Source of the DNA: a virus
Reading direction: 5' to 3' (one strand)
DNA: 54,010 nt
IMG/VR virus record: IMGVR_UViG_3300036944_000329
Span: 1-54,010 of that record
The position numbers and the translations under genes were made by a program. The notes under the pieces are model-generated. The model was given only the letters and a program-made list of their open reading frames with translations, did not search any database and was not told the DNA's origin. Numbering within the stretch: the stretch's first letter is position 1; every line of letters starts with the position of its first letter. Positions 1 to 53,086 of the stretch are shown here, piece after piece.

Positions 1-1
1 C

Positions 2-1588
2 ACTGCCGGTAACTTTGACTCCACCACTGCTACAGGTTTCTTTGGTGAAATTCCTGCTACAGACCTTGTTGATGATTATGATTATCGTGGCACATGGTCA
101 GCATCTATCGCATACACTGCTGGTCAGAGTGTTGTTTACAATGATGTTAAGTATGTTGCCCTGACATCTACCACAGGAAATCAGCCAGATATTTCACCAA
201 CACAATGGGGCGTGGATACACGGGAGAATCTCCCAACAGGACGTTGGTTGTTTGAACACATGGGCTTTGGTCAAGGCGTGTTACAGTTTGCTGGGAATAC
301 AGCATCAGATGCGGGTTGGCTTAAATTCTATAGTCACGGTAAGGTGTTGTATGTAGCTAAGAAACCTTTTGCTCACTCTATTTCTTGGGATGCGATTGCC
401 TGTCGAGATGGTGTGTTCGGTGATAGGACAGTTCGCATAGGCACTAAGTTATATAAAGTGAGACTGTTGACTGGTGCTGCATCTGACCCGATTGATCTAA
501 CCAACATTGTGGCTACAGATAGCTGTACTCAGAATTATGGCGGTGGGTCTGAATACAATGAACTCATCTACCGTATTCATCAGACTGTTGTGACATGTGG
601 TTCTGATACATACGATGGTGGCCCACAGGTGGGTGCGAATTGGGCTAGTTATACAGATACAGATTTACAAGTTGGTGGAACTCTGACTGGACGTGCTAAG
701 TGGACACAAGAGACCACATCAAACAACACCTCCTTTCGTGTCTTTCGTGGCTATGATCGTCTTTCTAACTTGGGTTCGCACACGTCCTCGAATGGGTTTA
801 CCGACTACGGTTGGCTGCCTGTCTTAGAACTGATCTCTGATGGCGATGAGCCATATAATAGCGCCGTGTTGGGCGTAGGCCCAACCCAGCTTACATACGA
901 TTTCCATACCGATACGGGTTATTTCGGCACTGTATCCTCAGCCGAATTCATATCAGGAAGTGCTTTAGCCTCAAGTATTGGTCTAACATCTGGTACAGCA
1001 ATCAATGACACAACAGATTGGTTAAAGTTTTATTGGCACGGACAGATCCACTATGTCCCGATGAAACCTCTTCGTCACAGTGTTAGTTGGGATCATATAT
1101 ATGACAGAGGTGCTGTGTATGGTGTATCTTCGATGGGATTGTTTGGCAAAGTAACCGCAGCTCCGAGTGTTGTCCAGAATCGTGAAGTGACAATCGGGAC
1201 AGATACATTCCGAGTGAAGCTCTTGAAAGGTGCTGAGAACGGAGATGTTGACGGAAGTACAAGTTTCCCTGCTGCCGACGAATCTGGTAGAAACTCCGAA
1301 TACAACGACCTCATTTATCGTGTTCATCAGGATGTTCCATCAAGCGCATCTGGACTAACTTATGATGGCGGCGGTCAGATCGGGGATAATTGGGCAAGCT
1401 ATACTGATACAGATCTTGTTATAGCTGCTGGTGATGGTCGTTATAAATGGGCTATTGAAAGACGTTCTGATTCCACCTCCGGTCGTGTCTATCGGGGCTA
1501 TGTTCGTCTTTCTGGCTTGCATTCGCTCACGTCCTCGGGTGTGTCTACCGACTTCGGTTGGCTGCCTTCGCTTGTCTTAAAGCCGTAA
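2..1588 (+). CDS. Variable virion protein (tail fibre or receptor-binding type), 5' end cut by window edge
   Basis: The frame is open from base 2 to the stop, 528 residues visible. A GTG at 212 lies inside the frame and is probably not the true start. Residues about 28-68 look like a chitin-binding (CBM5/12-like) fold: spaced W and Y residues around YTAGQSVVYNDVKYVAL. Two tandem homologous domains follow, about residues 106-277 and 340-528. Each starts WLKFY-HG---YV--KP--HS-SWD and ends RGY-RLS-----TSS---TD-GWLP. Domains ending in GW-P-L are typical of C-type-lectin-like phage display proteins, some of which are targets of diversity-generating retroelements. The last 93 bp of each domain show that signature (see the variable repeats). 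It probably sits at the tail tip and contacts the host. Function is inferred from context and fold pattern. Confidence 0.8.
   Translation, partial: TAGNFDSTTATGFFGEIPATDLVDDYDYRGTWSASIAYTAGQSVVYNDVKYVALTSTTGNQPDISPTQWGVDTRENLPTGRWLFEHMGFGQGVLQFAGNTASDAGWLKFYSHGKVLYVAKKPFAHSISWDAIACRDGVFGDRTVRIGTKLYKVRLLTGAASDPIDLTNIVATDSCTQNYGGGSEYNELIYRIHQTVVTCGSDTYDGGPQVGANWASYTDTDLQVGGTLTGRAKWTQETTSNNTSFRVFRGYDRLSNLGSHTSSNGFTDYGWLPVLELISDGDEPYNSAVLGVGPTQLTYDFHTDTGYFGTVSSAEFISGSALASSIGLTSGTAINDTTDWLKFYWHGQIHYVPMKPLRHSVSWDHIYDRGAVYGVSSMGLFGKVTAAPSVVQNREVTIGTDTFRVKLLKGAENGDVDGSTSFPAADESGRNSEYNDLIYRVHQDVPSSASGLTYDGGGQIGDNWASYTDTDLVIAAGDGRYKWAIERRSDSTSGRVYRGYVRLSGLHSLTSSGVSTDFGWLPSLVLKP
728..820 (+). repeat. 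Candidate DGR variable repeat 1 (internal domain)
   Basis: These are 31 codons at the end of the first lectin-like domain. Compared with 1475-1567 there are 15 differing bases. Fourteen are at codon positions 1 or 2, in codons such as ttt/ggt, gat/gtt, aac/ggc, ggt/cat, cac/ctc, aat/ggt and ttt/tct. The 20 unchanged codons carry no silent difference. Every differing site could derive from an adenine in a common template. The upstream parts of the two domains differ at many silent sites, so recent templated overwriting fits better than ordinary divergence. Confidence 0.65.
1475..1567 (+). repeat. Candidate DGR variable repeat 2 (C-terminal domain)
   Basis: Partner of 728-820, ending just before the last seven codons of the gene. 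It is followed after about 50 bp by a GC-rich hairpin and then by an Avd-like gene, the usual order in diversity-generating retroelements (variable repeat, hairpin, avd). I found no copy of the segment elsewhere in the window that could be the adenine-rich template repeat. Confidence 0.65.
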
Positions 1589-1617
1589 GGCTGTCTCTTA
1601 ACACTAACATCTAATAT

Positions 1618-1657
1618 GTGCGCGTTTAATGGCGGGGCTTGTCCCCGTCTAGCGCAC
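1618..1657 (+). other. Two-tier hairpin downstream of variable repeat 2
   Basis: Outer arms GTGCGC (1618-1623) and GCGCAC (1652-1657) enclose an inner 7-bp stem GGCGGGG/CCCCGTC (1631-1637 with 1643-1649, one G-T pair) with a 5-base loop. No T-run follows, so a plain terminator is unlikely. A stable hairpin just after the variable repeat is a known retrohoming element in DGRs. It could also be a processing or attenuation structure before the next gene. Confidence 0.6.
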
Positions 1658-1669
1658 TAAGGAATAATT

Positions 1670-1990
1670 ATGGTTGCTGATGGATTACTAGTGTTCTCTA
1701 AAGCAGAATCATTGTTCTACAGAATCTATCCATCTTTGATTAACTATCCTCGTGGTGAGAAATACTCTACGGTGGCTGCCATCAAAGATAACTTCATAGG
1801 ATTTCTCACAAGAATAAACCAAGCCAACTCTGTTAAGTCAAAACGTATAATGTATCTACAAGAGGATATTACCAGATGGTCTACTTCCAAAACAACGAAG
1901 CACAATTCTACACAACAAAAGCTATATTCACTGATACAGGCCATCCTGTTGAGCAATATACAAATGATCGTCAATACTATGAAAGCCTAG
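1670..1990 (+). CDS. Avd-like four-helix-bundle protein (DGR accessory), probably C-terminally truncated
   Basis: 106 residues, ATG preceded by AAGGAATAATT. Residues about 5-65 follow the bAvd/four-helix pattern: LLV--KAE-LFYRIYPSLINYPRGEKY, then IKDNF, then QANSVKSKRIMYLQED. In DGRs Avd binds the reverse transcriptase and is needed for mutagenic retrohoming. After about residue 66 the match fades: the expected LR-A-E and final GGW-type helix is absent. From base 1876 the frame runs out of phase through the next gene, a 115-bp overlap that is extreme for this genome. I infer a deletion that joined the first two thirds of avd to the start of the tail gene and removed the template repeat and reverse transcriptase. 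An intact divergent Avd with overlapping genes is the alternative. Confidence 0.6.
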   Translation: MVADGLLVFSKAESLFYRIYPSLINYPRGEKYSTVAAIKDNFIGFLTRINQANSVKSKRIMYLQEDITRWSTSKTTKHNSTQQKLYSLIQAILLSNIQMIVNTMKA

Positions 1991-2547
1991 TAGGACAATG
2001 GGGCCATCTGTCCAACCTATCCTTCGAGGATGTCGTCCCAACACAATCTCAGCAAGCTCGTCTAGTAGAACTAAATAACCTAGAAGTTCCTAACAAAGAT
2101 CTCTGGCAAGGCACCTGTGCTACATTCGTTGAGCATGGTATTATCCTCCCAGATGATTCTAGCCCACTATCTTCACTAGAACCTTCCTACAGAGAATCTA
2201 CACTCAATTTCTTCCGTGAAGAACGTAGGCAGATTCTCAAGCAAGAACGTGATGAACGTATCTCTCTTCCAATCAATAATGTTCAAGTGGGACGTATTGA
2301 GGACAGAGAGAACGTGACAGGTACTATCTCGAATTGGGATATTCTTGGTCTGACAACATCAATCAAATGGGTGATGTCTGATAACACGCTACAAGATCTC
2401 TCTAAAGCTGATCTGGAGGCTGTTGTAATTGGATATACACAACGTAAGGCTCAGACATTCTCTGCTTACGAACAGGCTGTGATTGCTTTACAGCAAGCAT
2501 CTACGATTGAGGAGATTATGGGTGTAATGTTACCGGAGGCTGTATGA
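1876..2547 (+). CDS. Tail-associated protein with DUF4376-like C-terminal domain
   Basis: 223 residues. The start is supported by AGAGGA nine bases upstream and by an N-terminus (MVYFQNNEAQFY) typical of phage tail fibre assembly and chaperone proteins. Residues about 115-220 fit the DUF4376 pattern found in tail fibre-associated proteins: a charged helix REERRQILKQERDERI, then a conserved beta/alpha part with TSIKWVMSDNTLQDLSKADL and a final alanine-rich helix. It overlaps the Avd-like frame by 115 bp and its stop overlaps the next start by 4 bp. Role in fibre attachment or folding is inferred from the family and position. Confidence 0.7.
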   Translation: MVYFQNNEAQFYTTKAIFTDTGHPVEQYTNDRQYYESLVGQWGHLSNLSFEDVVPTQSQQARLVELNNLEVPNKDLWQGTCATFVEHGIILPDDSSPLSSLEPSYRESTLNFFREERRQILKQERDERISLPINNVQVGRIEDRENVTGTISNWDILGLTTSIKWVMSDNTLQDLSKADLEAVVIGYTQRKAQTFSAYEQAVIALQQASTIEEIMGVMLPEAV

Positions 2548-3053
2548 GGAAGGTAGTGGCTACATTGTTCTTAGGATCTGTCCTAACCGGGTGCTCCTTA
2601 GACACAACTAATCGAACACTCTCTGTTATAACTTCTGCCACAAACATTGCTTACACATATGAGAATGGACAGGCTGTTAAATTCATCGACAATGCCCCTC
2701 TGACAGACCTTGAGATAACAATGGTGTTGGAGGCTTTTGATCAAATAGACCGTTCGAAGTCTGTCCTAAAACACTACCGAGACAATCCAGACAAACTCGT
2801 TCTGAACATACAAGATGTATCATTTCAATATGCTAAGATCAAATCAGCCTACCTAAGCATTCGAGAGATAGTCTTGTCTCACAAGGATGCTTACAACGCT
2901 CCAGAATGGGCTGTATTCAAAGAGTTTGATCAGAGTGCATCCGTATTAGACAAAGAGTTTAGACAGCTTGTGGAGGCTGTAGAGGCCAATACAGCACTTA
3001 CTACAGCTATACGTCTGGCTGATACCGCTATTAAGATAGGAGCTATGTTGTGA
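2544..3053 (+). CDS. Phage lipoprotein of unknown function
   Basis: 169 residues. MRKVVATLFLGSVLTGCS is a lipoprotein signal with lipobox LTGC, so the mature protein would start at Cys17 and be anchored in the outer membrane. The rest is mostly helical, with no motif I recognise. It starts inside the ATGA overlap with the upstream gene and ends in a GTGA overlap with the next one, so the three genes are translationally coupled. Lipoproteins made late sometimes block superinfection or act in lysis. That is only a possibility here. Confidence 0.7.
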   Translation: MRKVVATLFLGSVLTGCSLDTTNRTLSVITSATNIAYTYENGQAVKFIDNAPLTDLEITMVLEAFDQIDRSKSVLKHYRDNPDKLVLNIQDVSFQYAKIKSAYLSIREIVLSHKDAYNAPEWAVFKEFDQSASVLDKEFRQLVEAVEANTALTTAIRLADTAIKIGAML

Positions 3054-3562
3054 TCCCGTTCGACAGATCAAAGGATCAGATACTTCAGCACGGAATATCT
3101 GTCAGGTACTATCATGGACAATCCACCGAGGACAAGATTGTACTTGTTCCTTGGGTGTTGTGGTCAGCACGATTTCAGATAAAGATAATCATACCTCGCT
3201 TCTTTATCTACGATGGAGCGTCAGTCCCGAAGTCTTTACGAAGTATCGTGTCCAAAGCTGGTCCTCTTGAGATAGCATCTTTACCGCATGATTTCGGCTA
3301 TACACTCCCCGCATATCATCCAGACGAAACGGTTCTCACCCGAGATGAATGGGACTTAATCCTCAAGGACTTCTGTGAGCTTGAAGGTATGTCTTGGAGG
3401 CGTAGGCAATATGTGTACCTAGCCGTGAGGTCTGCTGGATATTTTGCCTATAACAACAAAGACAAGGCTTTCTTCTGTCCAGATGAACACAAGGATTGGT
3501 ATATCCAAGAATATTCATATCTAAACATACCAAAAGAGAATGGTGATTATAAAATAATATAG
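3050..3562 (+). CDS. DUF1353-type tail assembly protein
   Basis: 170 residues with a GTG start coupled to the preceding stop. The segment FFIYDGASVPKSLRSIVSKAG followed by ASLPHDFGY matches the DUF1353 family core (DGAS-P, then L-HD-lY), a small conserved protein of phage tail regions. Later Trp, Arg and Tyr-rich stretches (MSWRRRQYVYLAV) are also family-like. The biochemical role of this family is not settled. Position between the lipoprotein and the tail tube gene supports a tail or virion function. Confidence 0.65.
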   Translation: MIPFDRSKDQILQHGISVRYYHGQSTEDKIVLVPWVLWSARFQIKIIIPRFFIYDGASVPKSLRSIVSKAGPLEIASLPHDFGYTLPAYHPDETVLTRDEWDLILKDFCELEGMSWRRRQYVYLAVRSAGYFAYNNKDKAFFCPDEHKDWYIQEYSYLNIPKENGDYKII

Positions 3563-3571
3563 GAGAAAGCC

Positions 3572-4510
3572 ATGTCTAATTCTAACATGGTGGAAGTGTA
3601 TGTGGCAGGACACGGGGGAGATGTCCTACCTGTCCCAATCACTTCCGAGAATATCACTGTAACGAAACAAATTGAATACAGGGAGAATATACGCTCAGAC
3701 AGGTGTGTCAATAAATGGTCTGAAGTATCCTACACATCCTCTGCCCAAATAGATTTCCACCTAACCCTCAACCACGATTGGTTGTTTGAACACGCTCTTG
3801 GTGGGGATTGGCAAAATGGCGCATATTCTTCCTCTCTACAGTATTCAAATGCAATCAAACCGCTTGTTATTGGAAAGCATTTATCTGATCTCGATCACTG
3901 GGAGGTGTGTACGGATGCTTACCTAGACACACTATCCCTAGACGTGTCATACGGGAATATTGTCAACGGTTCTGCTACGTTTGTTTCTAATGGACATTCG
4001 TTTGAGAATGAGTTTAGCTCTACGCCAACAATAGAACATCAACCAGTGATTACAAGCAAAGATGTTGGTGTGATTGAAGTGGAGGGATATGACACTGGTA
4101 TGTTTATCGAGAGTCTAGATATGGTGATTAGTAATTCATACCAGCAACGCACTCCTATTGGTAATAAATATGTGTCTGGGTGGACGCCAACTAAATTCAC
4201 AGTGACTGGGAATATGAGCATCTACCTGACACAAGAATCTCTGAGCTTGTATAGAGAAAATTTCGAGACCAAGACATTCTCACTACGTTGGTGGTTACAT
4301 GCTAATGACACTATCTACGAATTCTTCCTCCCTGAATGTGTGTTAGATATCACAACACCTGTCGCTGAAGGGTTGGATACAGATATGTTTGTCAATGTCT
4401 CGTATTTTGCAATCTACTCTGAGACATTTGGTGGCGTGATGCAGATAAACAAATGGCGGGATATGTCGCTAGTGGATATAGCAGCCAACTCTCTATGGCC
4501 AAAAGCATGA
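3572..4510 (+). CDS. Tail tube (major tail) protein
   Basis: 312 residues with a good ribosome site (AGGAGAAAGCC) before the ATG. The N-terminal part has the phage tail tube pattern: VPITSENITVTKQIEYRENI, the charged IRSDR motif, and a beta-strand region followed by HDWLFEHALGGDW. Two similar halves (about 1-155 and 160-300) fit the duplicated beta-barrel of tail tube proteins; the second half repeats ITSKDVGVIEVEGY and TGNMSIYLTQESL. Such proteins stack as hexamers to form the channel through which DNA passes, and indicate a long-tailed virion. Confidence 0.75.
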   Translation: MSNSNMVEVYVAGHGGDVLPVPITSENITVTKQIEYRENIRSDRCVNKWSEVSYTSSAQIDFHLTLNHDWLFEHALGGDWQNGAYSSSLQYSNAIKPLVIGKHLSDLDHWEVCTDAYLDTLSLDVSYGNIVNGSATFVSNGHSFENEFSSTPTIEHQPVITSKDVGVIEVEGYDTGMFIESLDMVISNSYQQRTPIGNKYVSGWTPTKFTVTGNMSIYLTQESLSLYRENFETKTFSLRWWLHANDTIYEFFLPECVLDITTPVAEGLDTDMFVNVSYFAIYSETFGGVMQINKWRDMSLVDIAANSLWPKA

Positions 4511-4520
4511 GGAATTATAG

Positions 4521-5969
4521 ATGACAACATATAACACAGGGAATCCTGTTGGGAGTGCTGACCCAAAAGATTTCTACGACAATGCTGAGAACTTAGACTT
4601 AGCTATAAACGGAACAGGGGATATGTGGTTAGACCGCCTTGGCGTGTCACGCAAAAGCATAGCTGGATATAACAAGGATATGCAAGATCGAGTAAATGAG
4701 GCTGCTGCTAGTGCTAGCAAGGCTTCTATATCTGAACAGAATGCTTTAGCCAGTGAGCAAGCAGCAGCCTTGTCTGAATTAAATGCTTCAGCTAGTGCAT
4801 CTGCTGCATTAACATCTGAACAGAATGCTTTAGCCAGTGAGCAAGCAGCAGCTCTGTCTGAATCAAATGCAACCACATCGGAGGCGAATGCCCTAGCTAG
4901 TGAACAATCCGCAGCCTCCTTGTACGATCAATTTGATGATCGCTATCTAGGTAGTAGGGCAGACAACCCCACTGTAGATAATGATGGTAATACTCTCCTT
5001 GAGGGCGCTCTTTATTGGAATTCTACAGCTAAAGTGATGCGTGTTTGGGATGGTGTCATCTGGAAAGATATTGTCATCCCCGATTATGGCACTGCTGCAC
5101 TGGTTAATACAGGCACAGCCTCCGGCGAGCTAATCGGCACAGATGAGGCGAACGACTACTACGGCCTGCAATACAAGCCGTCCGTTGCACCCACAATGTC
5201 ATCCGATTTCTGTGCTAACGAACACAAACTCTACGAGCAATACGGCCTTGAGCCTAAAACCATCTTGCAGCAATGGGATGTAGTGCGTAATTCAGAGGCT
5301 ACCTATTTCGATGCAAACGGTGTGCTGCAAACGGCTGGGATCAATGAGCCTCGGATTGATTATGATCCGGCTACGGGAGAATGTCGGGGGTTGTTGGTTG
5401 AGGGGCAGCGTACAAATATCCAGCTTTACTCAAGAATGCAACAAGGATGGGAATTTACGGGGTACGATGAAGTATATAATGCAGCGATAGCGCCCAACGG
5501 TGAGATGGAGGCGCTAGAGGTTTATTATAACGGCGTAACGGCTATTAATATACGTTCGTATACCGCACCTTCTTCTACCCAGATGGTTTTTTCTATTTTC
5601 TTTAAAAACAAAAACTATTCAAAGGATTTCGTTCGGTTCTTAGTTAGAAACAACACAAGCGGAACAAATTTTATACAAGGCAACTTCGACTTAACTGATA
5701 ATAGTTTTCCAGATGGATCTCCTTGGCGCTCTGAATCTGTAGGTGACGGTTGGTATAGAATTTGGTTCACGACACCAATCGACATGGTTACACAGGGCGA
5801 CATTTTGTATTTCTATCTGGGTGAAACAGGGAGTGATATTTTCTTGGGAGCTGGCTCTTATTATTTTTGGGGCTGTCAGGCAGAGAATGGTACAGAGCCT
5901 TCTAGTTTAATTTATACCGCAGCATCTGCCGTAACCCGCGTAGCCGACATCATCACCCCAACAGTATAA
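4521..5969 (+). CDS. Tail fibre protein: coiled coil plus lectin-like domain
   Basis: 482 residues. Residues about 1-55 resemble a fibre attachment domain (DPKDFYDNAENLDLAINGTG). Residues 56-135 form a long alanine/serine/glutamate-rich coiled coil with internal repeats (SEQNALASEQAAALSE twice). A collar-type segment DDRYLGSRADNPTVDNDGN and YWNSTAKVMRVWDG follows, then a concanavalin-like lectin domain with the marker LLVEGQRTNIQLYS (about residues 290-305). The end RVADIITPTV is the point where related fibre domains usually continue into another sandwich half. That half is found as the next open frame. Bases about 5100-5400 look richer in G+C than the neighbours, suggesting exchange of the receptor-binding part. 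Confidence 0.8.
   Translation: MTTYNTGNPVGSADPKDFYDNAENLDLAINGTGDMWLDRLGVSRKSIAGYNKDMQDRVNEAAASASKASISEQNALASEQAAALSELNASASASAALTSEQNALASEQAAALSESNATTSEANALASEQSAASLYDQFDDRYLGSRADNPTVDNDGNTLLEGALYWNSTAKVMRVWDGVIWKDIVIPDYGTAALVNTGTASGELIGTDEANDYYGLQYKPSVAPTMSSDFCANEHKLYEQYGLEPKTILQQWDVVRNSEATYFDANGVLQTAGINEPRIDYDPATGECRGLLVEGQRTNIQLYSRMQQGWEFTGYDEVYNAAIAPNGEMEALEVYYNGVTAINIRSYTAPSSTQMVFSIFFKNKNYSKDFVRFLVRNNTSGTNFIQGNFDLTDNSFPDGSPWRSESVGDGWYRIWFTTPIDMVTQGDILYFYLGETGSDIFLGAGSYYFWGCQAENGTEPSSLIYTAASAVTRVADIITPTV
4731..4863 (+). repeat. Direct repeat in the fibre coiled coil
   Basis: A 49-bp stretch starting tctgaacagaatgctttagc at 4731-4779 recurs almost exactly at 4815-4863, 84 bp later (28 codons, four heptads). 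Unit gain or loss by recombination would lengthen or shorten the fibre without breaking the coiled-coil register. Confidence 0.75.
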
Positions 5970-5979
5970 GGAGCACACA

Positions 5980-6231
5980 ATGCAGATTAACGATCAAGGC
6001 ACCTTCTACGTTGAGGGTGAATATACAAACGGTGAAGTAATTATGTCGGCAGGATCGTTTGAAATCCTTGCTGACGCTGACGGGTATAAAAAATACTGCG
6101 TTGGTTATGACGCAACCACCACGCCAAATCCTTCAGGGCAGATAATCCAGCTCGAAAATGGCCGCCACCGTGATTTCCGGTATTACCCATACAAACTGTC
6201 CGCTGCTGAAATTACGGAGCTGACACGATGA
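5980..6231 (+). CDS. Detached C-terminal half of the fibre lectin domain
   Basis: 83 residues. QGTFYVEGEY at the start and ENGRHRDFRYYPYKLSAAEITELT at the end match the last beta-strands of concanavalin-like fibre domains, which normally continue directly from the end of the preceding protein. Here a stop at 5969 and a fresh ribosome site (AAGGAGCACACA) make it a separate product. It may associate non-covalently with the fibre, or the gene may have been split by mutation and then repaired for translation. Overlaps the next start by 4 bp. Confidence 0.65.
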   Translation: MQINDQGTFYVEGEYTNGEVIMSAGSFEILADADGYKKYCVGYDATTTPNPSGQIIQLENGRHRDFRYYPYKLSAAEITELTR

Positions 6232-6503
6232 TCAATTTAGACATTATCGGCACTATGTACGATCTGGATACCACTGATCCAGATAACCCAGTCAGCACTC
6301 CAATTGCAGGCTATCACGTTAATACCGACCATCCGATTACTGGCGCTGAAGAATATATAGTGGTGCCCAATAGCCCAAGCAGGGTGTTTGCTGGAGCGGA
6401 TACACTGTTCTACAGCTTCCCGGATGAGGATACGTTCAAGGGTTTCTTCCCTGAATTGTATCCGCCTGAGTTGGAGGTTCTACCTGATGAAATTCAAGCG
6501 TAA
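6228..6503 (+). CDS. Small tail-region protein of unknown function
   Basis: 91 residues, coupled to the previous gene by an ATGA overlap. The start MINLDIIGTMYDLDTTDPDNPVSTP and the acidic end LPDEIQA show no family I can name, but short proteins of this type often follow fibre genes. It lacks signal or membrane segments. Its 3' end is overlapped by the lipoprotein gene that follows. Confidence 0.6.
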   Translation: MINLDIIGTMYDLDTTDPDNPVSTPIAGYHVNTDHPITGAEEYIVVPNSPSRVFAGADTLFYSFPDEDTFKGFFPELYPPELEVLPDEIQA

Positions 6504-6819
6504 AACAATCCTCACACTAGCATGGGCGCTGCTTCTAGCGCCTGTGTTTGTGCTGCTTCTAGCTGGGTGCTCCGCGACAAAGGATCAATTCCCTGAGCGT
6601 AAACGTGACGCTATCTTTGCCGAGATATTTGTCGTTGACGAGATACCGAACGCCAAGTCTGATGTATTAGGCCAAGCTAAATGGTCGGGTAACAGATGTA
6701 CTGTCTACGTCCGCTCAGATATCTATCCGTATGCTATGACACATGAGCTAATGCACTGCTTCAGCGGCAATTGGCACGAGGGCAATAAGTCGGCAGAGTA
6801 TCAGCATATTGTGGACTAA
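6487..6819 (+). CDS. Lipoprotein with HExxH metallopeptidase-like motif
   Basis: 110 residues from the ATG at 6487, which gives a canonical lipoprotein signal: MKFKRK, hydrophobic stretch, LLLAGCS lipobox. The mature part carries MTHELMHCFSGNWH, an HExxH zinc-binding motif followed by another His seven residues after the second motif His, reminiscent of but not identical to the metzincin spacing. It lies directly in front of the holin and spanin candidates, so a zinc-dependent role in lysis or envelope passage is possible. It is too short for most known peptidases, so activity is unproven. Overlaps the previous gene by 17 bp. Confidence 0.65.
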   Translation: MKFKRKTILTLAWALLLAPVFVLLLAGCSATKDQFPERKRDAIFAEIFVVDEIPNAKSDVLGQAKWSGNRCTVYVRSDIYPYAMTHELMHCFSGNWHEGNKSAEYQHIVD

Positions 6820-6830
6820 TAGGAGCCAAC

Positions 6831-7037
6831 ATGATCTCCCCAGAGCAATTCGATAAATGGCGTGTTGTGCCAAGACTTCTAACCGCACTCTACGGATGGA
6901 TATGTTATGACACACACATTTGGTTCCAGAATCTTCCTGCTCCAACGTCTGAGCAACAACTCTATGCCAATATCATCTGGGGAGCTGCTGCTGCTTGGTT
7001 TGGTCTATATGTAAACTCTGGCAACAGAAAGGAGTAG
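6831..7037 (+). CDS. Putative holin or membrane protein of the lysis cassette
   Basis: 68 residues. The pattern PEQFDKWRVVPRLLTALYGWICYDT, then ANIIWGAAAAWFGLYVNSG, is shared by small phage proteins found beside spanin genes: two hydrophobic helices and a short charged tail. A holin would permeabilise the inner membrane and start lysis. The start follows AGGAGCCAAC and the gene is separated by 3 bp from the i-spanin gene. Confidence 0.6.
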   Translation: MISPEQFDKWRVVPRLLTALYGWICYDTHIWFQNLPAPTSEQQLYANIIWGAAAAWFGLYVNSGNRKE

Positions 7038-7040
7038 TAT

Positions 7041-7385
7041 ATGTGGCTAAAACATTGGAAGATGATTCTTGTTGGAATTACTCTTCTCGGATCATTCTAT
7101 GCCGGATATGTCTATAGTACATACCAACACCAATCAGATGCTATCTCCGACATGATTGATAGGCAAGATATTCTTCGGGAGTATATGTCTAGAGAATCTG
7201 AGATAGCAAGTATTGTAGAAGAACGCCTGTCTACACTATCTGCTAATGAGCGTGTGCTAGAACGTGAACGTGTACGTATTGTCGAGAAGCCTGTCTACAA
7301 CATATCCTGCATAGACGAGGAAGGACAGGCTCTAATTAAGCAATACGCTCTAGGGGCTTCTATAGAGGGTGTAGGAGATGAGTAA
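7041..7385 (+). CDS. Rz: Inner-membrane spanin (Rz-like)
   Basis: 114 residues. One N-terminal membrane anchor (MILVGITLLGSFYAGYVY) is followed by a periplasmic coiled coil (SEIASIVEERLSTLSANERVLERERVRIVEK). Its 3' end overlaps the start of a small lipoprotein gene by 8 bp, the classic Rz/Rz1 arrangement. Spanins link the inner and outer membranes and fuse them in the last step of lysis of Gram-negative hosts. The assignment rests on topology and gene order, since spanins are poorly conserved in sequence. Confidence 0.75.
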   Translation: MWLKHWKMILVGITLLGSFYAGYVYSTYQHQSDAISDMIDRQDILREYMSRESEIASIVEERLSTLSANERVLERERVRIVEKPVYNISCIDEEGQALIKQYALGASIEGVGDE

Positions 7386-7626
7386 ATCTAGGCAATACGT
7401 TCTGTTGGGGATGTTATTAACATCCCTCACAGGATGTTCTGCTAAGCCTGAGGTGTCTCCGCAAGTGATGCAGCAAACACTCCTTATCAAATGTCCATCT
7501 ACACTACCATATGACTATGGAACAGAAGGATCTGACTGGATGCTGATGGCTAAGGAGTGGTCTAGCTTATACCACGAATGTGCAACAAGACACAATGGTT
7601 TGATTGATGTATTAAATTCAAAATAG
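7378..7626 (+). CDS. Rz1: Outer-membrane spanin lipoprotein (Rz1-like)
   Basis: 82 residues starting within the end of the i-spanin gene. The signal MSKSRQYVLLGMLLTSLTGCS has a clear lipobox (LTGC), placing the mature protein in the outer membrane. Cys at CPSTLP and HECATRH could form disulfides. It would pair with the coiled-coil i-spanin through the periplasm. It is longer than lambda Rz1 and not strongly proline-rich, which is common outside lambdoid phages. Confidence 0.72.
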   Translation: MSKSRQYVLLGMLLTSLTGCSAKPEVSPQVMQQTLLIKCPSTLPYDYGTEGSDWMLMAKEWSSLYHECATRHNGLIDVLNSK

Positions 7627-8837: not shown

Positions 8838-9382
8838 ACAGACTCCTCCACAGAATATCGCATCATATGAGGTGTTCTGTCCTCGTACTCAATCCATTCT
8901 ACAATAAACTTTACATTATTGAAGAGGATGTGCTGCTTAATGAACTTTAACGGCCCTTCTCTGGGATGGACACACTCCTCAACAACATCCTCTCCGTATT
9001 TCTCACACAAGCCCTTATCTAGCCCCCACAAGTGATATGACCACTCTTGAAACGGGTAGTGGTGATTATCCAGCACAGGGTAGTATTCGTGCTCATACAT
9101 CCACAAACACCCTTCCCGCAAGTATGTGTCGTCACACATCAATGGGATCATATTGTCATCTTCTTCGTCAACACTTTTGAACGATAGACAGATGTGACCA
9201 CCTTTCCCAAGAGCCTCTTCCAAAGAGTCAGCAATATCACCATACATGTACTCAGCAATACCTTGTTTGGTGTAGTGCTGTTCAAACATACCGAATGATG
9301 ATGTACTGGAGAAGAAGATTATCGGCAACCCATCTTCGGGTATATCATCTAGTGACAATTCATGCAGTGTCAGTGTTTTCAT
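8834..9382 (-). CDS. Unknown early protein
   Basis: 182 residues, acidic and rich in His, Tyr and Trp, without signal or membrane helix. DIPEDGLPIIFFSS near the start could be a beta strand and loop. Coupled to both neighbours by ATGA overlaps. I do not recognise a family. Confidence 0.6.
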   Translation of the reverse strand: MKTLTLHELSLDDIPEDGLPIIFFSSTSSFGMFEQHYTKQGIAEYMYGDIADSLEEALGKGGHICLSFKSVDEEDDNMIPLMCDDTYLREGCLWMYEHEYYPVLDNHHYPFQEWSYHLWGLDKGLCEKYGEDVVEECVHPREGPLKFIKQHILFNNVKFIVEWIEYEDRTPHMMRYSVEESV

Positions 9383-9798
9383 TCCACAATCTCCAATTCA
9401 GACATCTTCTCATAACTCCCGAACACAATATCATGTGGAATCAGCACCCACAAGTATTCATGCTTTAATGGAATCACCTTAGTAGTGTAGTATTTGTCAC
9501 ACTCCAACACAAGGTCTAGCTTCCACCAATCAGGATGGTTGTAATATGTATCAAGATCACAATCATCTGGATCCAAATAGTTTTCACCATCCCAGATTAT
9601 AGGCATGAAAGAGAGTCCTTGTCCTTTGTAATCCTTAGTGTTAGCCGACCATTCACCATCAATGTAATAATACTTGTCTTTTACAGTGAATCTTACAACG
9701 ATAATGCCATCAGGATGTTCTCGGCAGGATACTGTCTTGATAATATCACTGTAAGATATTGGTGTATTATGTACGAATCTATGTATGTGTAGCTTCAT
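9379..9798 (-). CDS. Unknown early protein
   Basis: 139 residues, start preceded by TAGGAGGAAAC. The composition (many Tyr, Asp and Lys; GIIVVRFTVKDKYYYIDGEW) suggests a small beta-rich soluble domain. First gene of a coupled group of four that runs down to 8413. No family recognised. Confidence 0.6.
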   Translation of the reverse strand: MKLHIHRFVHNTPISYSDIIKTVSCREHPDGIIVVRFTVKDKYYYIDGEWSANTKDYKGQGLSFMPIIWDGENYLDPDDCDLDTYYNHPDWWKLDLVLECDKYYTTKVIPLKHEYLWVLIPHDIVFGSYEKMSELEIVE

Positions 9799-9843
9799 GT
9801 TTCCTCCTAAGTGTTTGGTTCAGACATCTGTAGTGTAGTCTTG

Positions 9844-10314
9844 TCAACTGTCTTTCAGCTTGAATCCAAACATAGTGCGTTCTGTATGCCCTAACGGATG
9901 TTCTCCCTGTTCCCACCAATCAGACATCTCAACAACACCACTCTTGTCGGAGAACACCTTAGCGTGACACATCCCTTTGCTAAGATTGTTCTTGTTGCAA
10001 TAGCGTTCAAGAGCATCTGTCAGCTCAAGTAGTGTATCTAGGTGCATCTCACCAAGTTCTAGCTGGCAATGTCCGTTGTATTCGTTGTCCTTGGACACAA
10101 TCATGTTGATCATGATGTCACCAAGAGCTGTGTTGGTGTTCTTGTCACCTTGATGCTTGAATGGTGTTGTCTTGACAATCTTAACAACATCGAATGAATC
10201 GCAGATGTGCTTTTCAGCATAATAAGCAGTGGATGCTACAATGTTTGAAGAACATCGTTCCCATTCACCTGCATCTTCATTTAGGACATCATACACGACA
10301 TTATATGTGTTCAT
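9844..10314 (-). CDS. Unknown early protein
   Basis: 156 residues. The N-terminal part (MNTYNVVYDVLNEDAGEW) and a later GEMHLDTLLELTDALERYCNK helix suggest a compact alpha/beta protein. It is separated by 12 bp from the homing endonuclease gene upstream, and its stop is followed after 45 bp by the next gene. No recognised motif. Confidence 0.6.
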   Translation of the reverse strand: MNTYNVVYDVLNEDAGEWERCSSNIVASTAYYAEKHICDSFDVVKIVKTTPFKHQGDKNTNTALGDIMINMIVSKDNEYNGHCQLELGEMHLDTLLELTDALERYCNKNNLSKGMCHAKVFSDKSGVVEMSDWWEQGEHPLGHTERTMFGFKLKDS

Positions 10315-10326
10315 TCGACACCCTCC

Positions 10327-10938
10327 TTATAAAAATCTTGTACATAATGCCTGAGCAATACGAGCATCTGTAACATATTCTGAATCAGCTAATTGACAAG
10401 CTAATTCGTGTTTTCGTTTTTTCCAAACTAAATGAGCTTGGTTAGGGTCGTTGAATAGACCTAGATATTCTCGTTTACCAGTGAAGGGGTTGCGGCATCG
10501 AGCCTGAAATTTACCTTTATAGGAGCTAACGCCTAGCGGGAATTCTCCACGAGCATTGCCGCTATCATTCAAAAAAGTATTCACAATAGATGTAACGAAT
10601 ACGCAAGTATCTGGCCCGTATTCTTTATTACCTACAACTAACAAGTCTTTATCTAGTTGTTTGTTCTCCCAAGATTGGGACTCCATCCAGCACTTGAAGT
10701 TTGAGAATGTTAACCATTCTTCACAAACAGAGCAGCCAATATAAGTAGGTTGCTTTTCATGGTACTTTTCAGAGTAACACCGTTTTAGCATATGGCACCA
10801 TCTAGCATAATACGGGCATACCCATACCATTTTCCGTTTACCATCCACATTTTCATACAAAGTCACATTGTAATTGGCATCATTTAAACCCACACCCTGT
10901 ACTAACTTATTCGTTGATCTTATTTTAATACCTATCAT
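10327..10938 (-). CDS. Free-standing HNH/AP2-type homing endonuclease 1
   Basis: 203 residues. The N-terminal half has the nuclease-family signature: CPYYARWCHMLKRCYSEKYHEKQPTYIGCSVCEEWLTFSNF, conserved Cys and His residues, then LDKDLL-GNKEYGPDTCVFV. The C-terminal half (FQARCRNPFTGKREYLGLF) is an AP2-like DNA-binding domain. Two paralogues lie at 23591-24193 and 25929-26522, sharing also the end TD-R-AQAL-TR-L. Such enzymes cut intron-less or gene-less alleles and copy themselves into them. It overlaps the glutaredoxin gene by 4 bp, showing a precise insertion between genes. Confidence 0.85.
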   Translation of the reverse strand: MIGIKIRSTNKLVQGVGLNDANYNVTLYENVDGKRKMVWVCPYYARWCHMLKRCYSEKYHEKQPTYIGCSVCEEWLTFSNFKCWMESQSWENKQLDKDLLVVGNKEYGPDTCVFVTSIVNTFLNDSGNARGEFPLGVSSYKGKFQARCRNPFTGKREYLGLFNDPNQAHLVWKKRKHELACQLADSEYVTDARIAQALCTRFL

Positions 10939-11189
10939 ACCAAATCCTCTTCAACAAGGTAGTCGCACAGTTCAGTATAACCACCAATGTATTCATTCCC
11001 GTACACAATCTGTGGCACTGTCTTAACCTCGACATTATCATTAACTAAACTAATGGTATCAATCAACTCAACCTTAGTTATATGCTCCCCAACCGAATAG
11101 TATTGATACGGGATGTTGTTGTCCTGAAGAATCTGGACAGCCTTAGTGCAGAACGGACAATCTGGTTTACCATATACTTTGAATAGCAT
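10935..11189 (-). CDS. Glutaredoxin
   Basis: 84 residues. MLFKVYGKPDCPFCTKAVQIL contains the CPFC redox site of glutaredoxins. KTVPQIVYGNEYIGGYTEL carries the conserved cis-proline and the GG-(D/E)L glutathione-binding loop. It would pass electrons to the phage ribonucleotide reductase, whose large subunit ends in a CESC redox tail. Cytosolic; length normal for the family. Confidence 0.9.
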   Translation of the reverse strand: MLFKVYGKPDCPFCTKAVQILQDNNIPYQYYSVGEHITKVELIDTISLVNDNVEVKTVPQIVYGNEYIGGYTELCDYLVEEDLV

Positions 11190-11192
11190 ATA

Positions 11193-11369
11193 TTATTCCT
11201 CCTTACAATTAGCAATACTTTTCAGATCAATCACAACAAGCACGTTCTCTTCATATACAGAATGAGTGATCATCAGATGCCTGAGATCAAGTTCTGATTC
11301 AATCACTCTTGCAACAACTGGTTGTGGACAGTGTTCTAGCCAGTCTTCTAATGGTGTTTCCACAATCAT
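11193..11369 (-). CDS. Small unknown early protein
   Basis: About 58 residues. An ATG at 11378 has no ribosome site. The GGGAGGA there fits better as a ribosome site for a GTG at 11363 or, at close spacing, the ATG at 11369, so the start is uncertain by a few codons. ENVLVVIDLKSIANC near the end looks like one beta strand and helix. No family recognised. Confidence 0.5.
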   Translation of the reverse strand: MIVETPLEDWLEHCPQPVVARVIESELDLRHLMITHSVYEENVLVVIDLKSIANCKEE

Positions 11370-11617
11370 TCCTCCCAAATAAATTCATCGTTAATTGTAA
11401 TCAGATAACACTTCTTCCATAGCTGAACAGACACAAATATAGAAGGTGTATCCAGACTAACATTCATGTTCAGACCAAAGCTGCGATCACAGACATCGTA
11501 CACACCTAATGTGAGCAATGCTTTGTTGCCGTAGATACCTAGCCCATACTCTCGGTAAGAACCTCGATCATGTATGCTTTTGGCGAATAGTTTGTCAAAG
11601 AACATCATTGTCACCAT
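11366..11617 (-). CDS. Small unknown early protein
   Basis: 83 residues, overlapping both neighbours. A predicted mixed alpha/beta protein (YGLGIYGNKALLTLGVYDV; IFVSVQLWKKCYLITI). Possible start two codons later at the second Met. Function unknown. Confidence 0.55.
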   Translation of the reverse strand: MVTMMFFDKLFAKSIHDRGSYREYGLGIYGNKALLTLGVYDVCDRSFGLNMNVSLDTPSIFVSVQLWKKCYLITINDEFIWEE

Positions 11618-14436: not shown

Positions 14437-15390
14437 TCACAATGTACAGCTTTCACAAGCAGCTTCTTCTACTTCTCGAACAGTATCTGAATCGTCCTTA
14501 CTAGGCATTCTGAAGTTGTGATAATACCAAGTCTTCATCCCAAGTTTAGCGGCTAGGAAGATAGACTTCATCATCTCTGCATCAGAAAATGGGCCTTTGT
14601 TATAGTCATGGTAGAAGTCAGCGCTAATCCCCTGACTGCACCATTTCTGCACAATCGCATACACTTTAACCATATCTTCTGAAGCGACATCCCAAGCATA
14701 TTGGTACTTAACAGTGTCCATATCAGGTGCCCGGAAGTAAACGCTACCCTTGCGGGAGTTCTTATATATTTCTAGGTCACGCACTGGATAGAGACTATTC
14801 GTGCTACCTGTTACGAGAGAACTACTCTCACACGGCATGTAGCTCTCTAATACACTGAACCGAACACCGTGTTCCAGAATGTCCTTCCTGAGACTTTCCC
14901 AATCGTAAACATTGTCTTGTGAATGATACATATCTACAGTTTTGGTGTATGTGTCAGAAGGAATCCATCCCTCTGCGTATTTGGTACGATCCATGTACTC
15001 ACACTTACCCTTCTCCTTTGCCAGACGAACAGACGCTTTATGTAAGAAGTAGGAGTGTCGTTCAGCAAGTCTGTGAAGTGCGTTACGTCCTTCCTCTGTA
15101 TCGTAGCGGTAGCCATTCTTAGCCATCCAGTGAGCTACGTTAGTCATACCTACACCAATTGACCGATACCCTTTCGCTGTGGCCTCCATACTCTCGAATG
15201 GGTACTTCGTATCATCAATTGTGTTGTCAATAATCTTGCAAAGTGTGTAAGCAAGATCTTCATACTCCGCATCAGTGTAATCGTCCACTACGATACTGCC
15301 CAAAAAACACAGTGCGATTGTCCCGTCTGCATTCTCCTTGTAAAGCTCTCTTGGACTTGAGAACGGTTTAGTCGGTAGCAACACCTCTTG
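14437..15390 (-). CDS. nrdA: Ribonucleotide reductase class I large subunit, exon 2
   Basis: 317 residues after splicing, starting with CAA GAG GTG (Q-E-V-L-L-P-T), which completes the active-site motif N-L-C-x-E begun in exon 1. Further family marks are MTNVAHWMAKNGY, SSLVTGSTNSLYPVRDLEIYK (the GSTNS phosphate-binding segment), and the C-terminal CESC tail that is reduced by glutaredoxin. A GTG at 15384 could be misread as an independent start, but there is no ribosome site and the fragment would lack half of the barrel. Spliced length with exon 1 is 738 residues, normal for NrdA. Confidence 0.93.
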   Translation of the reverse strand, partial: QEVLLPTKPFSSPRELYKENADGTIALCFLGSIVVDDYTDAEYEDLAYTLCKIIDNTIDDTKYPFESMEATAKGYRSIGVGMTNVAHWMAKNGYRYDTEEGRNALHRLAERHSYFLHKASVRLAKEKGKCEYMDRTKYAEGWIPSDTYTKTVDMYHSQDNVYDWESLRKDILEHGVRFSVLESYMPCESSSLVTGSTNSLYPVRDLEIYKNSRKGSVYFRAPDMDTVKYQYAWDVASEDMVKVYAIVQKWCSQGISADFYHDYNKGPFSDAEMMKSIFLAAKLGMKTWYYHNFRMPSKDDSDTVREVEEAACESCTL

Positions 15391-15618
15391 CGAGGAACCT
15401 AATGCTTTCGCACTAGCTCGGACTATATCACCATCCCATAAGGATGCCGGACGCTAATCTTGTCTTACGATCTACGCTTAGATCACCAAGTAGTCTCTAC
15501 ACCTTCCTGACAAGATCGTGTCAGGCTTGGCTCGGTATTGCCATCACCATTACGTGTTAAGGTTTCACCGAATTCATCCGGTTATTCGAGATACATTGCT
15601 GTATCAAGCTGCCAATTG
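15391..15618 (-). ncRNA. Group I self-splicing intron in nrdA
   Basis: 228 nt with no internal endonuclease gene. The 5' exon ends CTGT. CTGTC pairs with GGCAG (15609-15613) to give P1 with the U-G pair at the splice site. TTG before it pairs with the 3' exon CAA (P10). The intron ends in G (15391). Core segments: TTCGGTGAAACC (P, 15561-15572), AATACCG (Q), GTAGAGACTA (R, 15491-15500) and GATATAGTCC (S, 15420-15429), with P7 between GACTA and TAGTC. Splicing joins TGT to CAA in frame, restoring the active site. Confidence 0.92.
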
Positions 15619-16881
15619 ACAGAGGTTGCTCAACCTAATTTCCTCTTTGAACGGAGTGTGCTTGTTCACATTATTAATGAATGTGATGTAGTTACGCCCA
15701 GTGTCCCTACGGGCTTCTACGAGCTGCTTCAGGATACCACGAGCATCTACCACTTTCTTCTTAACGTCACTAGCCAGCACACGTTCATATTCTTTCTCAA
15801 AAGCACCTTCATCTTCGCTGTAGAACAGCTCCCACAACTTAGGTGCGTAATAGGGACTGACGCACATCCAAGGTTCTTTCTTAGCTGCTTTCTTCAAGAA
15901 CAGGTTATTGACCGCAATCGAATAGTCTAACGTATCAATCCGGTAGTTCTCTGGTGTACGTTGTTGCTTCATTGTAAGCAGTGCATCAACTTCAGGGTCA
16001 AGAACCGTATAGGTCACTGTACTAGAGCCACCACGAGTCACCTGAGAGTTTGCTGCAACAGCACTGGCAATGTGCTTATAGTATGAATGCTTACCAGAAT
16101 GAGTCACCATACCCCCCTTAACAGGGTCTTTAGGTGCTCGTGTAGTCAATTCAATACCAATACCACTACGCTGTGCTGTCAGCTTGTATGCTACATCAAT
16201 CGCTGCCTGAATACTATCTACAGTGTCCCCTCCGCTCATAACCGCACAACTGGGGGAGGATTCTAGCAGAGTACGGCTTCCGTTTAGCGTTGGTGTGGGC
16301 AAGTTTAACTTCAGGTTACTCAGCTTTTGGTACGCACTAATAACTTCTTGCAAACGATTGTCTTCGTTACGCATTTGGTTCATAGCGACACCCATAAATA
16401 ACATCTGAGGAGACTCTACGACACCTTCTGACATATTCACTAGGTACTTATCGTATAGTTGTTTCAATGTCGCGTATGTGTAAGTGAAATCCTTAGTGTG
16501 GTCAATTACGTTGTCAAGTTCAACCAGTTCGTAATCTGTATAGCCCATATCAACCCACCAACCATTCTCAACAGCTTCTTCATAGAAGTCTTTAAGGGAT
16601 GGGATTGAAAAGCACTTATATGCCTCCTTATAAATGTGTCCAACAAGCAGTCTAGCTGCCATTCGTGTATGCCCGTCTGTCCGTTTGGACAAGCAAGAGT
16701 TAATGAGTGCATTGTGCAGATCTACTGTTGTACAACGCTCAGACAGACCACGAACAGCATTGAATACAACAGATGACCAATCAACACCGCATTCCTCAGA
16801 TGCCCAGCTAGACCATTTGTTCAGGTTGTCTACGTCAAACTCTGCAACAGAACCATCTCGTTTAATAATCTCTTTAATCAT
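15619..16881 (-). CDS. nrdA: Ribonucleotide reductase class I large subunit, exon 1
   Basis: 421 residues, MIKEIIKRDGSVAEFDVDNLNKW onward. SSPSCAVMSGGDTVDSI contains the conserved redox cysteine of the barrel, and the exon ends ...RLSNLC, the catalytic thiyl-radical cysteine. Unspliced reading continues only QLAA and stops, so the protein needs the intron removed. The start ATG overlaps the stop of phoH by one base (TAATG), implying coupled translation in an operon phoH-nrdA-nrdB. Confidence 0.93.
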
Positions 16882-23590: not shown

Positions 23591-24193
23591 TTATAAGTAA
23601 CGTGTACGTAATGCCTGAGCAACACGTTCATCAGTTACATATGCTGATTCGACTAACTGGCAAGCTAATTCGTGCTTGCGTTTCTTCCAAGCTAGATGTG
23701 CTTGGTCTGGGCAGTCGAATAGTCCGAGGTATTCTCGTTTGCCCGTGAACGGGTTTCTGCACTGAGCCTCAAACTTCTTTGCCACATTATGAAAACGAAC
23801 TCCGAGCGGATAGGCTCCACGACTGTTGCATCTATCTAGAGTAAAGGTGTTCACAACGGATGTAACGAATACGCAAGTTTCTGGCCCGTATTCTTTATTA
23901 CCACTGATTAATAAATCTTTATCTAGTTGTTTGTTCTCCCAATCCTGTTGCTCCATCCACAGCTTAAAATTACTAAACGTCAACCAGTCTTCACAAACTG
24001 AACAACCTGAGTATGTTGGATAATGTTCATGATACTCTTTAGAATAACAACGTTTTAACATATGACACCATCTAGCATAATATGGACATCGCCAAACGAT
24101 TGTCTGTTTCCCATCTATCCGCTCATACAGAGACACTTTATAACCGGCGTCATTAATACCGACACCATACACCTTACTACATTCCCTTCCCAT
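23591..24193 (-). CDS. Free-standing HNH/AP2-type homing endonuclease 2
   Basis: 200 residues, closely related to the products of 10327-10938 and 25929-26522. CPYYARWCHMLKRCYSKEYHEHYPTYSGCSVCEDW is the nuclease part, FEAQCRNPFTGKREYLGLF the AP2-like DNA-binding part, and TDERVAQALRTRYL the shared end. It lies between the ssDNA-binding protein and exonuclease genes, just upstream of the exonuclease ribosome site. Confidence 0.85.
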   Translation of the reverse strand: MGRECSKVYGVGINDAGYKVSLYERIDGKQTIVWRCPYYARWCHMLKRCYSKEYHEHYPTYSGCSVCEDWLTFSNFKLWMEQQDWENKQLDKDLLISGNKEYGPETCVFVTSVVNTFTLDRCNSRGAYPLGVRFHNVAKKFEAQCRNPFTGKREYLGLFDCPDQAHLAWKKRKHELACQLVESAYVTDERVAQALRTRYL

Positions 24194-25928: not shown

Positions 25929-26522
25929 TTATAGATACCTTGTACGTAATGCTTGCGCAACACGTTCATCGGTTACGTGTTCTGAATCAGCTAGTTGGCA
26001 AGCTAATTCGTGCTTACGTCTTTTCCAAGCAAGGTGAGCTTGGCTAGGGCATTCGTACACACCAAGGTGCTCTTGTTTCCCAGTAAATGGGTTGCAGCAC
26101 CGAGTCCTAAACTTCTTCGCCAGTTTATCAAAATGAACTCCAATCGGATATTCTCCTCGACTATTGGCACTGTCAGTTAAAAAAGTGTTTACTATTTGTG
26201 GAACAAATACACAGTTGTCAGGGTTGTATTCTTTATTGCCAACCTTCAATAAGTCTTTATCTAGGTGTTTGTTCTCCCAATCATGTTGTTCCATCCATGC
26301 TCGGAAGTTCGAGAACGTATGCCACTCTTCACAAACAGAACAGCCTATATAAGTAGGTTGCTTCTCGTGGTACTTGCCAGAATAACAGCGTACCAACATG
26401 CTCTGCCACTTATTGTAAAACGGGCACACCCACACAACCTTCCGTTTTCCATCAACATTTTCATTCAAAGTCACATCGTAATTTGCATCATTAATACCTA
26501 CGCCTGCTACTAATTTAGCCAT
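25929..26522 (-). CDS. Free-standing HNH/AP2-type homing endonuclease 3
   Basis: 197 residues, third copy of the family (with 10327-10938 and 23591-24193). CPFYNKWQSMLVRCYSGKYHEKQPTYIGCSVCEEW, LDKDLLKVGNKEYNPDNCVFV and FRTRCCNPFTGKQEHLGVY mark the nuclease and AP2-like parts. It follows the polymerase gene by 13 bp. Its similarity to copies 1 and 2 suggests spread within this genome or repeated arrival. Confidence 0.85.
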   Translation of the reverse strand: MAKLVAGVGINDANYDVTLNENVDGKRKVVWVCPFYNKWQSMLVRCYSGKYHEKQPTYIGCSVCEEWHTFSNFRAWMEQHDWENKHLDKDLLKVGNKEYNPDNCVFVPQIVNTFLTDSANSRGEYPIGVHFDKLAKKFRTRCCNPFTGKQEHLGVYECPSQAHLAWKRRKHELACQLADSEHVTDERVAQALRTRYL

Positions 26523-33895: not shown

Positions 33896-33929
33896 TGGTT
33901 GTTAGTCACAATTGTACTCAGACACCCAG

Positions 33930-34180
33930 ACTAGATGTCTAGACTAGATATCTAGTTTAGATATCCTATCTAAATATCTTATCTAGATATATAGTATTTA
34001 TAAGTATAATAGTAACTAAATAATACTAGCTAATATATCTTGTTAAGAAGTCTAGTCTAGATATCCAGTATAGATGATCTAGTCTAGATATCTTGACCAG
34101 ATCGCCTAAGCGAAGCGTACATCTTCTGTGATAGTGTTGTCAATACCCTTTTCAAAGATTCTTAACAAAATGTCTTGTTA
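33930..34180 (-). promoter_or_regulatory. CTAG-rich leader/origin element, copy 1
   Basis: AT-rich DNA packed with TCTAGAC, AGATATCTAG and related motifs, headed on the minus strand by the promoter-like TTGACA (34138-34143), 18-base spacer, TACGCT (34114-34119). Read leftwards it is homologous to 52740-52960 read rightwards: both share AAAGGGTATTGACAA, TACGCT, the CTAG repeats and CTTCTTAACAAGATAT. No gene fits here. It is either a long leader of early transcription or part of a replication origin. Confidence 0.7.
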
Positions 34181-42333: not shown

Positions 42334-42400
42334 GGCTGTAATAATGTATTTGAGATACATCTTTATCAGTGTTTCATGTGGAACATTTGCCACCATTGGT

Positions 42401-42583
42401 GCCTGAATCAATCCTTGCCTGAATCAATCCTTGCCTGTATCATCCTTGCCTGTATCATCCTTGCCTGTATCATCCTTGCCTGTATCATCCTTGCCTGTAT
42501 CATCCTTGCCTGTATCAATCTTGCCTGTATCAATCTTGCCTGTATCATCCTTGCCTATAGCATCCTTGCCTGAATCAATCCTT
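42401..42583. repeat. 12-unit tandem array, 15-16 bp period
   Basis: Twelve head-to-tail units, consensus GCCTGTATCATCCTT, starting at 42401 with two 16-bp units (gcctgaatcaatcctt), then 15-bp units, and ending with one 16-bp unit. All units are open in several frames on both strands, so the open frames here are a by-product. Confidence 0.92.
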
Positions 42584-42624
42584 GAAAGGATAGCCCACTC
42601 CCCATCCAAGCCACTATACCCCAC

Positions 42625-52739: not shown

Positions 52740-52960
52740 CTTAAAGAATCTTTGAAAAGGGTATTGACAATGGTATAGCAGGTTTGGTACGCTACCGCTT
52801 GCGGTGTCCAGACAAGATTATCTAGACTAAATATCTAGACTAGACTTCTTAACAAGATATCTTAGCTAGTATAAATACTAATATAATAATACTTATTACT
52901 TATATATTATCTTAACTAGATATCTAGACTAGACTCTAGGCTAAACATCTAGACCAGAAT
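52740..52960 (+). promoter_or_regulatory. CTAG-rich leader/origin element, copy 2
   Basis: Inverted homologue of 33930-34180. AAAGGGTATTGACAATGG begins it, with TTGACA (52764-52769), 18-base spacer, TACGCT (52788-52793). Dense CTAG-containing motifs and an AT-rich middle follow, with no gene until 53291. Confidence 0.7.
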
Positions 52961-53034
52961 TCTAGACAAGATCTCTAGTCAAGACATCCAGCCTAGAACT
53001 CTAGTCTAAACATCCTAACAAGATCTCTAGCAAA

Positions 53035-53086
53035 GAATCTTAGCAATGAATCTTAGCAATGAATCTTAGCAATGAATCTTAGTAAG
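53035..53086. repeat. Four tandem 13-bp units
   Basis: GAATCTTAGCAAT at 53035, 53048 and 53061, with a variant at 53074, at the end of the CTAG-rich region and just before the promoter at 53113. Confidence 0.85.

Follow-up and report, generated by a model that had tools for sequence, protein, structure and literature searches.

The closest described systems are diversity-generating retroelements (DGRs). In the DGR of Bordetella phage BPP-1, which has the order mtd-avd-TR-brt (TR, template repeat), sequence change is specific to adenines, and the single variable repeat (VR) is located at the 3' end of the target gene. A hairpin is often found just past the VR in DGR targets.

Both multiple VRs within one open reading frame (ORF), which are rare, and broken phage DGRs have already been reported. 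The DGR of Marichromatium purpuratum has three tandem FGE-sulfatase domains in one ORF (PMC3521204), a case in which an artefact or a pseudogene remained a possibility (PMC3521204), and 31 DGRs with several VRs in one ORF have been described (PMC6642488). In epsilon crAss-like phages, the reverse transcriptase (RT) genes of DGRs are fragmented or deleted in some members (PMC11054128).

In this study, we analyzed a viral sequence of 54,010 bases (IMG/VR record IMGVR_UViG_3300036944_000329), hereafter called the window. It is a metagenomic fragment that opens inside a gene and lacks the upstream structural genes. A reading of its sequence (the original prediction) had attributed two tandem repeats in this first gene to a DGR. 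Here, we describe how these repeats relate to intact DGR cassettes in sister phages and to a deletion that removed most of the mutator from the window.

Two tandem variable repeats in one virion gene

The target gene, its repeats and the gene that follows are located as follows.

2-1588, + strand: target gene, an open frame whose 5' end lies beyond the window; it encodes a virion/tail protein that ends in two lectin-like domains
727-820, + strand: VR1, the C-terminal 93-94 bp of domain 1; altered at 11 of the 23 template adenines and at 3 other bases
809-819, + strand: IMH-like GC-rich conserved end of VR1, GGTTGGCTGCC, of putative role; VR/TR identity stops here
840-854, + strand: weak hairpin ATGGC-GATGA-GCCAT, 19 nt past VR1, of putative function; also present in L001 and L002
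1474-1567, + strand: VR2, the C-terminal 93-94 bp of domain 2; altered at 16 of the 23 template adenines and at 3 other bases
1556-1566, + strand: IMH-like GC-rich conserved end of VR2, assigned on the same basis as that of VR1 and likewise of putative role
1581-1592, + strand: weak hairpin AGCC-GTAA-GGCT with a 4-bp stem, 13 nt past VR2, read from the sequence (it falls below the 5-bp stem used as cut-off in the hairpin search)
1876-2547, + strand: next gene, DUF4376 tail protein (PF14301, 4e-10; phrog_2837 tail protein, 5e-4)

Two IMG/VR contigs, L001 and L002, represent sister phages, with target proteins 91% identical; the full-length homologue in L002 has 906 amino acids and is encoded at 8864-11584. 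The target gene matched the virion structural protein families phrog_16120, phrog_21620 and phrog_3589, and also phrog_1062. No homologue of the domain was confirmed in genome contigs, which were searched for host identification, and among named phages the DNA relatives of the first 12 kb of the window were limited to one 135-bp match.

The two 93-bp repeats (728-820 and 1475-1567), whose match continues one base further 5' (727 and 1474), differ at 15 of 93 bases. As originally counted, 14 of these differences are at codon positions 1 or 2 and one is at position 3 (cgt/cgg), so that the 31 repeat codons comprise 10 amino-acid changes, 20 identical codons and one synonymous codon. The scarcity of silent change, on which the original prediction had relied, was borne out: among codons for the same amino acid, silent differences were found in 1 of 21 in the repeats versus 35 of 70 just upstream (Fisher p = 1e-4), and the same contrast was seen in L001 (p = 5e-5) and L002 (p = 1e-3). 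The skeleton common to VR1 and VR2 is beyond chance, with 0 matches in 100 shuffles.

A lectin-like fold of the target domains is plausible from structure prediction. The single-domain AlphaFold model (pLDDT 82) had as its best PDB match Treponema denticola variable protein 1, a DGR target; this match is weak (E = 4e-3, TM-score 0.26). The further PDB matches were mostly formylglycine-generating (FGE-type) enzymes. A two-domain model was of low confidence (pLDDT 70, pTM 0.54) and was left unused. By analogy with DGR targets in general, the domains may function in receptor binding.

Other features of the window

At the corresponding position, L001 and L002 lack a block of approximately 4 kb (window 3565-7625), in which the window encodes a tail-tube-like protein (3572-4510) and a tail fibre (4521-5969). 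Three paralogous genes of approximately 200 codons occur in the early region (10327-10938, 23591-24193 and 25929-26522; 73-80% DNA identity); a further copy is present in contig L074, and a 135-bp match was found in Pseudomonas phage 16Q, where it is named DNA-binding protein. A group I intron (15399-15628, - strand; Rfam RF00028, 68.6 bits, E 2e-17) interrupts the gene for the large subunit of ribonucleotide reductase (14437-16881, - strand), whose frame is open on either side. Degenerate arrays of TCTAGACTAGA-like repeats with 13-bp spacing are located at 33912-34163 and 52744-53049, 18.7 kb apart; they are mutually inverted, with arms of 66 and 50 bp. An additional tandem array at 42397-42606 consists of about ten copies of a 15-bp unit, ATCCTTGCCTGTATC.

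Intact DGR cassettes in sister phages

Both sister phages have the gene order target(VR1, VR2)-avd-TR-RT-9-like RNA-RT, and the DUF4376 tail gene follows the RT in both. The TR is located at 12070 in L001 and at 12062 in L002 and is identical over 93 bp. When the six VRs of the three phages were compared with this template, 92 of 138 template adenines were changed versus 14 of 420 other bases (p = 2e-54). Adenine was replaced by G, T and C about equally (34, 32 and 26 times, respectively), and 8 of the 14 non-adenine changes were confined to two positions, 84 and 93. The original prediction that every variable site could be derived from adenine is correct for 13 of the 15 sites that differ between the window repeats; repeat positions 21 and 68 are T in the sister template. 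The conserved end reads GGCTGGCTGCC followed by T in the VRs versus GGCTGGCTGCC followed by C in the TR, and may have a role in homing.

The sister RT (332 amino acids) matched RVT_1 (2e-22) and phrog_1423 reverse transcriptase (3e-97), contains the motifs LGNLTSQ and YADD, and is 37% identical over 271 amino acids to Brt of phage BPP-1. Sister Avd matched bAvd in Pfam (1e-13), Avd phrog_3206 in PHROGs (2e-15) and DivGenRetAVD in NCBIfam (3e-16), the last under the curated cut-off of that model. Between TR and RT, the RT-9 RNA of L002 scored 39.7 bits (E = 4e-5), below the gathering score of 46.1; in the more distant L003, it scored 87.5 bits. Thus, L001 and L002 each combine an RT near the target, a TR with adenine mismatches, an Avd and an IMH-like end. 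The L002 record also extends far into the upstream structural genes, which are absent from the window; those included are apparently the genes for terminase, portal and capsid, as named from reading the sequences rather than from a profile search.

No second TR or RT was found in the L001 and L002 records. Each sister has a single TR for its two diversified VRs, so both domains draw on the same template. With a matching TR, avd and RT behind the same gene in the sisters and with the changes falling on template adenines, the predicted DGR cause of the repeats is confirmed at the level of sequence comparison: VR1 and VR2 have the properties expected of DGR variable repeats.

Deletion of the mutator in the window

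The original prediction also expected a template repeat and an RT within this genome. Neither was found in the 54 kb; stubs of the cassette flank a deletion junction instead.

1670-1864, + strand: avd stub, the first 65 of 123 codons (98% amino-acid identity to L002 Avd, tblastn)
1859-1863: deletion junction with a 5-bp microhomology, CAAGA; 1388 bp missing versus L002 and 1387 bp versus L001
1860-1934, + strand: RT remnant, the last 24 codons plus stop, overlapping the next gene (tblastn 92%, RT residues 309-332)

The junction was mapped by BLAST coordinates: window positions 1-1863 correspond to L002 10000-11859 (94%), and positions 1859-3565 to L001 13250-14957 (98%) and L002 13243-14950 (93%). 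The avd stub still matched bAvd (9.3e-5), DivGenRetAVD (1.1e-5) and Avd phrog_3206 (9e-6), and its frame continues to an unrelated stop at 1990; with 65 of 123 codons left, the window has no intact Avd. The start codon of the next gene (1876) and its likely ribosome-binding site, AGAGG (1861-1865), outlast the deletion. In the 54-kb window, RVT_1 had no match and the RT was represented by the last 24 codons at 1860-1931, while the template skeleton was matched only by VR1 and VR2.

Because the window has no TR and no RT, mutagenesis is most likely past, and the VRs have most likely stayed as fixed end products, frozen in the sequence that the last diversification left. The data do not support the active hypervariable display that had been proposed, as avd is reduced to a 5' stub and the TR and nearly the whole RT are gone from the window. 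A genome without template or RT had been named as evidence against a DGR, and the window, over the length that it covers, contains neither; the DGR origin of the pattern still stands.

Other cassette states in relatives

A wider search by domain alignment yielded 26 loci, in which the cassette was found in several states. A full-length RT plus a TR/VR pair is present in L003, L048 and L051/L052. Contigs L005 and L006, which are 99.99% identical, keep the VR and avd and have a TR that lacks its 3' end. In place of the RT, they have an HNH endonuclease ORF (HNH, 2e-6) fused in frame to the last 15 RT codons:

L005 2390-3133 and L006 3860-4603: HNH endonuclease ORF replacing the RT

In L059 (5682-6833), the DGR is decayed: avd is interrupted by a stop codon, and the RT has broken frames and an internal deletion, yet the TR and a strong RT-9 RNA are still there. 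In L004, the target gene is followed by a short stretch and then by the tail gene, and avd, TR and RT are all absent. Between L003 and L005, avd is 99% identical and the target gene 87%, which suggests that the cassette is exchanged as a module.

These loci allow a tentative generalization, which we consider possible rather than probable: DGR mutagenesis in this protein family may be a transient state, in which the machine first randomises the binding domains and is then destroyed again and again in different ways (by microhomology deletion, by HNH-endonuclease replacement, by pseudogenisation or with clean absence), selected VRs persist, and avd-TR-RT is a module that recombination can exchange.

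Proposed history and alternative explanations

The history that we consider highly probable is that retrohoming made the tandem VRs, that the mutator was then deleted, and that the VRs have since been frozen. A TR approximately 0.5 kb downstream would have been the single template for VR1 and VR2 in one virion protein. Its RNA would have been reverse transcribed, with random bases put opposite adenines, and the cDNA would have overwritten both lectin-like domains at their 3' ends (mutagenic retrohoming). A microhomology deletion would then have taken the 3' half of avd, the TR, the RT-9-like RNA and the RT except for 24 codons; it would have spared the start and ribosome-binding site of the next gene and left the VRs frozen. 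The sequences themselves show the VR/TR relation, the intact cassettes of the sisters, and the deletion and stubs of the window; we infer that the changes arose by retrohoming, that the virus truly carries the deletion, and that the VRs receive no help in trans.

The lost template may have left a trace. Repeat position 84 is T in both window VRs, whereas L001 and L002 have C there in their TRs as well as their VRs; in the simplest reading, both window VRs were copied from a TR of their own lineage that had T at this position, before its deletion. When positions 84 and 93 are set aside, each window VR has one non-adenine change, which is not above the sisters, and this lack of excess suggests that the loss was recent.

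The same absence of surplus non-adenine change would be expected if the VRs were DGR products but the deletion were an assembly chimera or a minority variant, in a population that keeps an intact, active DGR. Searched for in other viral contigs, the junction sequence was found in none, so that it is known from a single record. The affinities of the window also change near this point. Informative sites to the left of the junction nearly all agree with L002; from 1924 to 2009, the stretch checked, all agree with L001. This switch, within about 60 bp of the junction, fits phage recombination, yet it calls for caution about a chimeric contig. The identity between L001 and L002 themselves jumps from 79% to 98% at this point inside avd, and the middle of avd is thus a recombination boundary in at least two comparisons. 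To the right of the junction, site 1902 agrees with L002 and not with L001, which makes it probable that the join and the switch do not coincide. Moreover, the 5 bp common at the junction are far under usual assembly k-mers, the ribosome-binding site and start of the next gene are kept, and cassettes have been broken independently in other relatives. We therefore regard a chimera or minority variant as unlikely, though it is the least improbable of the alternatives.

Considerably less probable is continued diversification of the VRs in trans, by a TR and RT supplied from the missing part of the phage, by a sister phage infecting the same cell or by the host. The VRs keep their IMH-like ends and are hence still plausible targets, and since the window lacks the upstream structural genes, a second template or RT could reside there in this genome. 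However, the window and the sister records contain no other TR or RT, and the only matches to the VR skeleton beyond the window came from the L001 and L002 viral contigs, with none among genome contigs. Finally, gene conversion between the domains plus positive selection on binding-site residues, with no retroelement, would have conversion alone account for why VR1 and VR2 show almost no silent differences. Both the template and the adenine bias contradict this explanation, which leaves unexplained a separate 93-bp template copy in which 13 of the 15 differing sites are adenine, the adjoining avd, RT-9-like RNA and RT, and adenine-specific change in six VRs; we consider its probability negligible.

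Discussion

Retrohoming followed by loss of the mutator would provide a natural comparison between close phages with and without a mutator, in which the evolution of VRs after the loss can be asked, as can whether mutator loss follows once binding is good enough. In genome scans, VR-like repeats that lack a TR and RT could be explained through relatives.

The target domain is also found outside these phages. Virion proteins of jumbo phages (PhiPA3 gp80, Salicola phage SCTP-2 gp82 and Noxifer) belong to the same domain family by sequence, and PhiPA3 and Noxifer have the same domain by predicted fold, with E 3e-19 for the best match in that library. PhiPA3, SCTP-2 and Noxifer are absent among the RT matches listed (134 further records lie beyond these), and the domain is therefore probably used there without a DGR.

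As in the epsilon crAss-like phages (PMC11054128), a full DGR is present in some members of the group and the RT is lost in others. The target differs from theirs, and no crAss-like link was seen here. In addition, unlike in those phages, an exact deletion, an avd stub and an RT tail are visible, and in one relative an HNH endonuclease replaces the RT.

The sisters resemble BPP-1 in the order target(VR)-avd-TR-RT, in adenine-specific change and in the 3'-terminal location of the VR. In contrast to BPP-1, with its one VR, two VRs are located in one gene here, and the window lacks TR and RT. In having two VRs in one gene, the locus is similar to DGRs with several VRs (PMC3521204, PMC6642488), in which tandem paralogous domains occur in one ORF and a VR ends each domain. 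Unlike the Marichromatium case, the arrangement is common to three phage contigs, and a single TR serves both VRs in the sisters. Both VRs differ among the window, L001 and L002; separately diversified repeats in the same arrangement in three contigs support tandem VRs in one protein as real. The locus combines features of these known kinds: tandem VRs in one virion gene, a machine that has been cut out, and sister phages that keep it.
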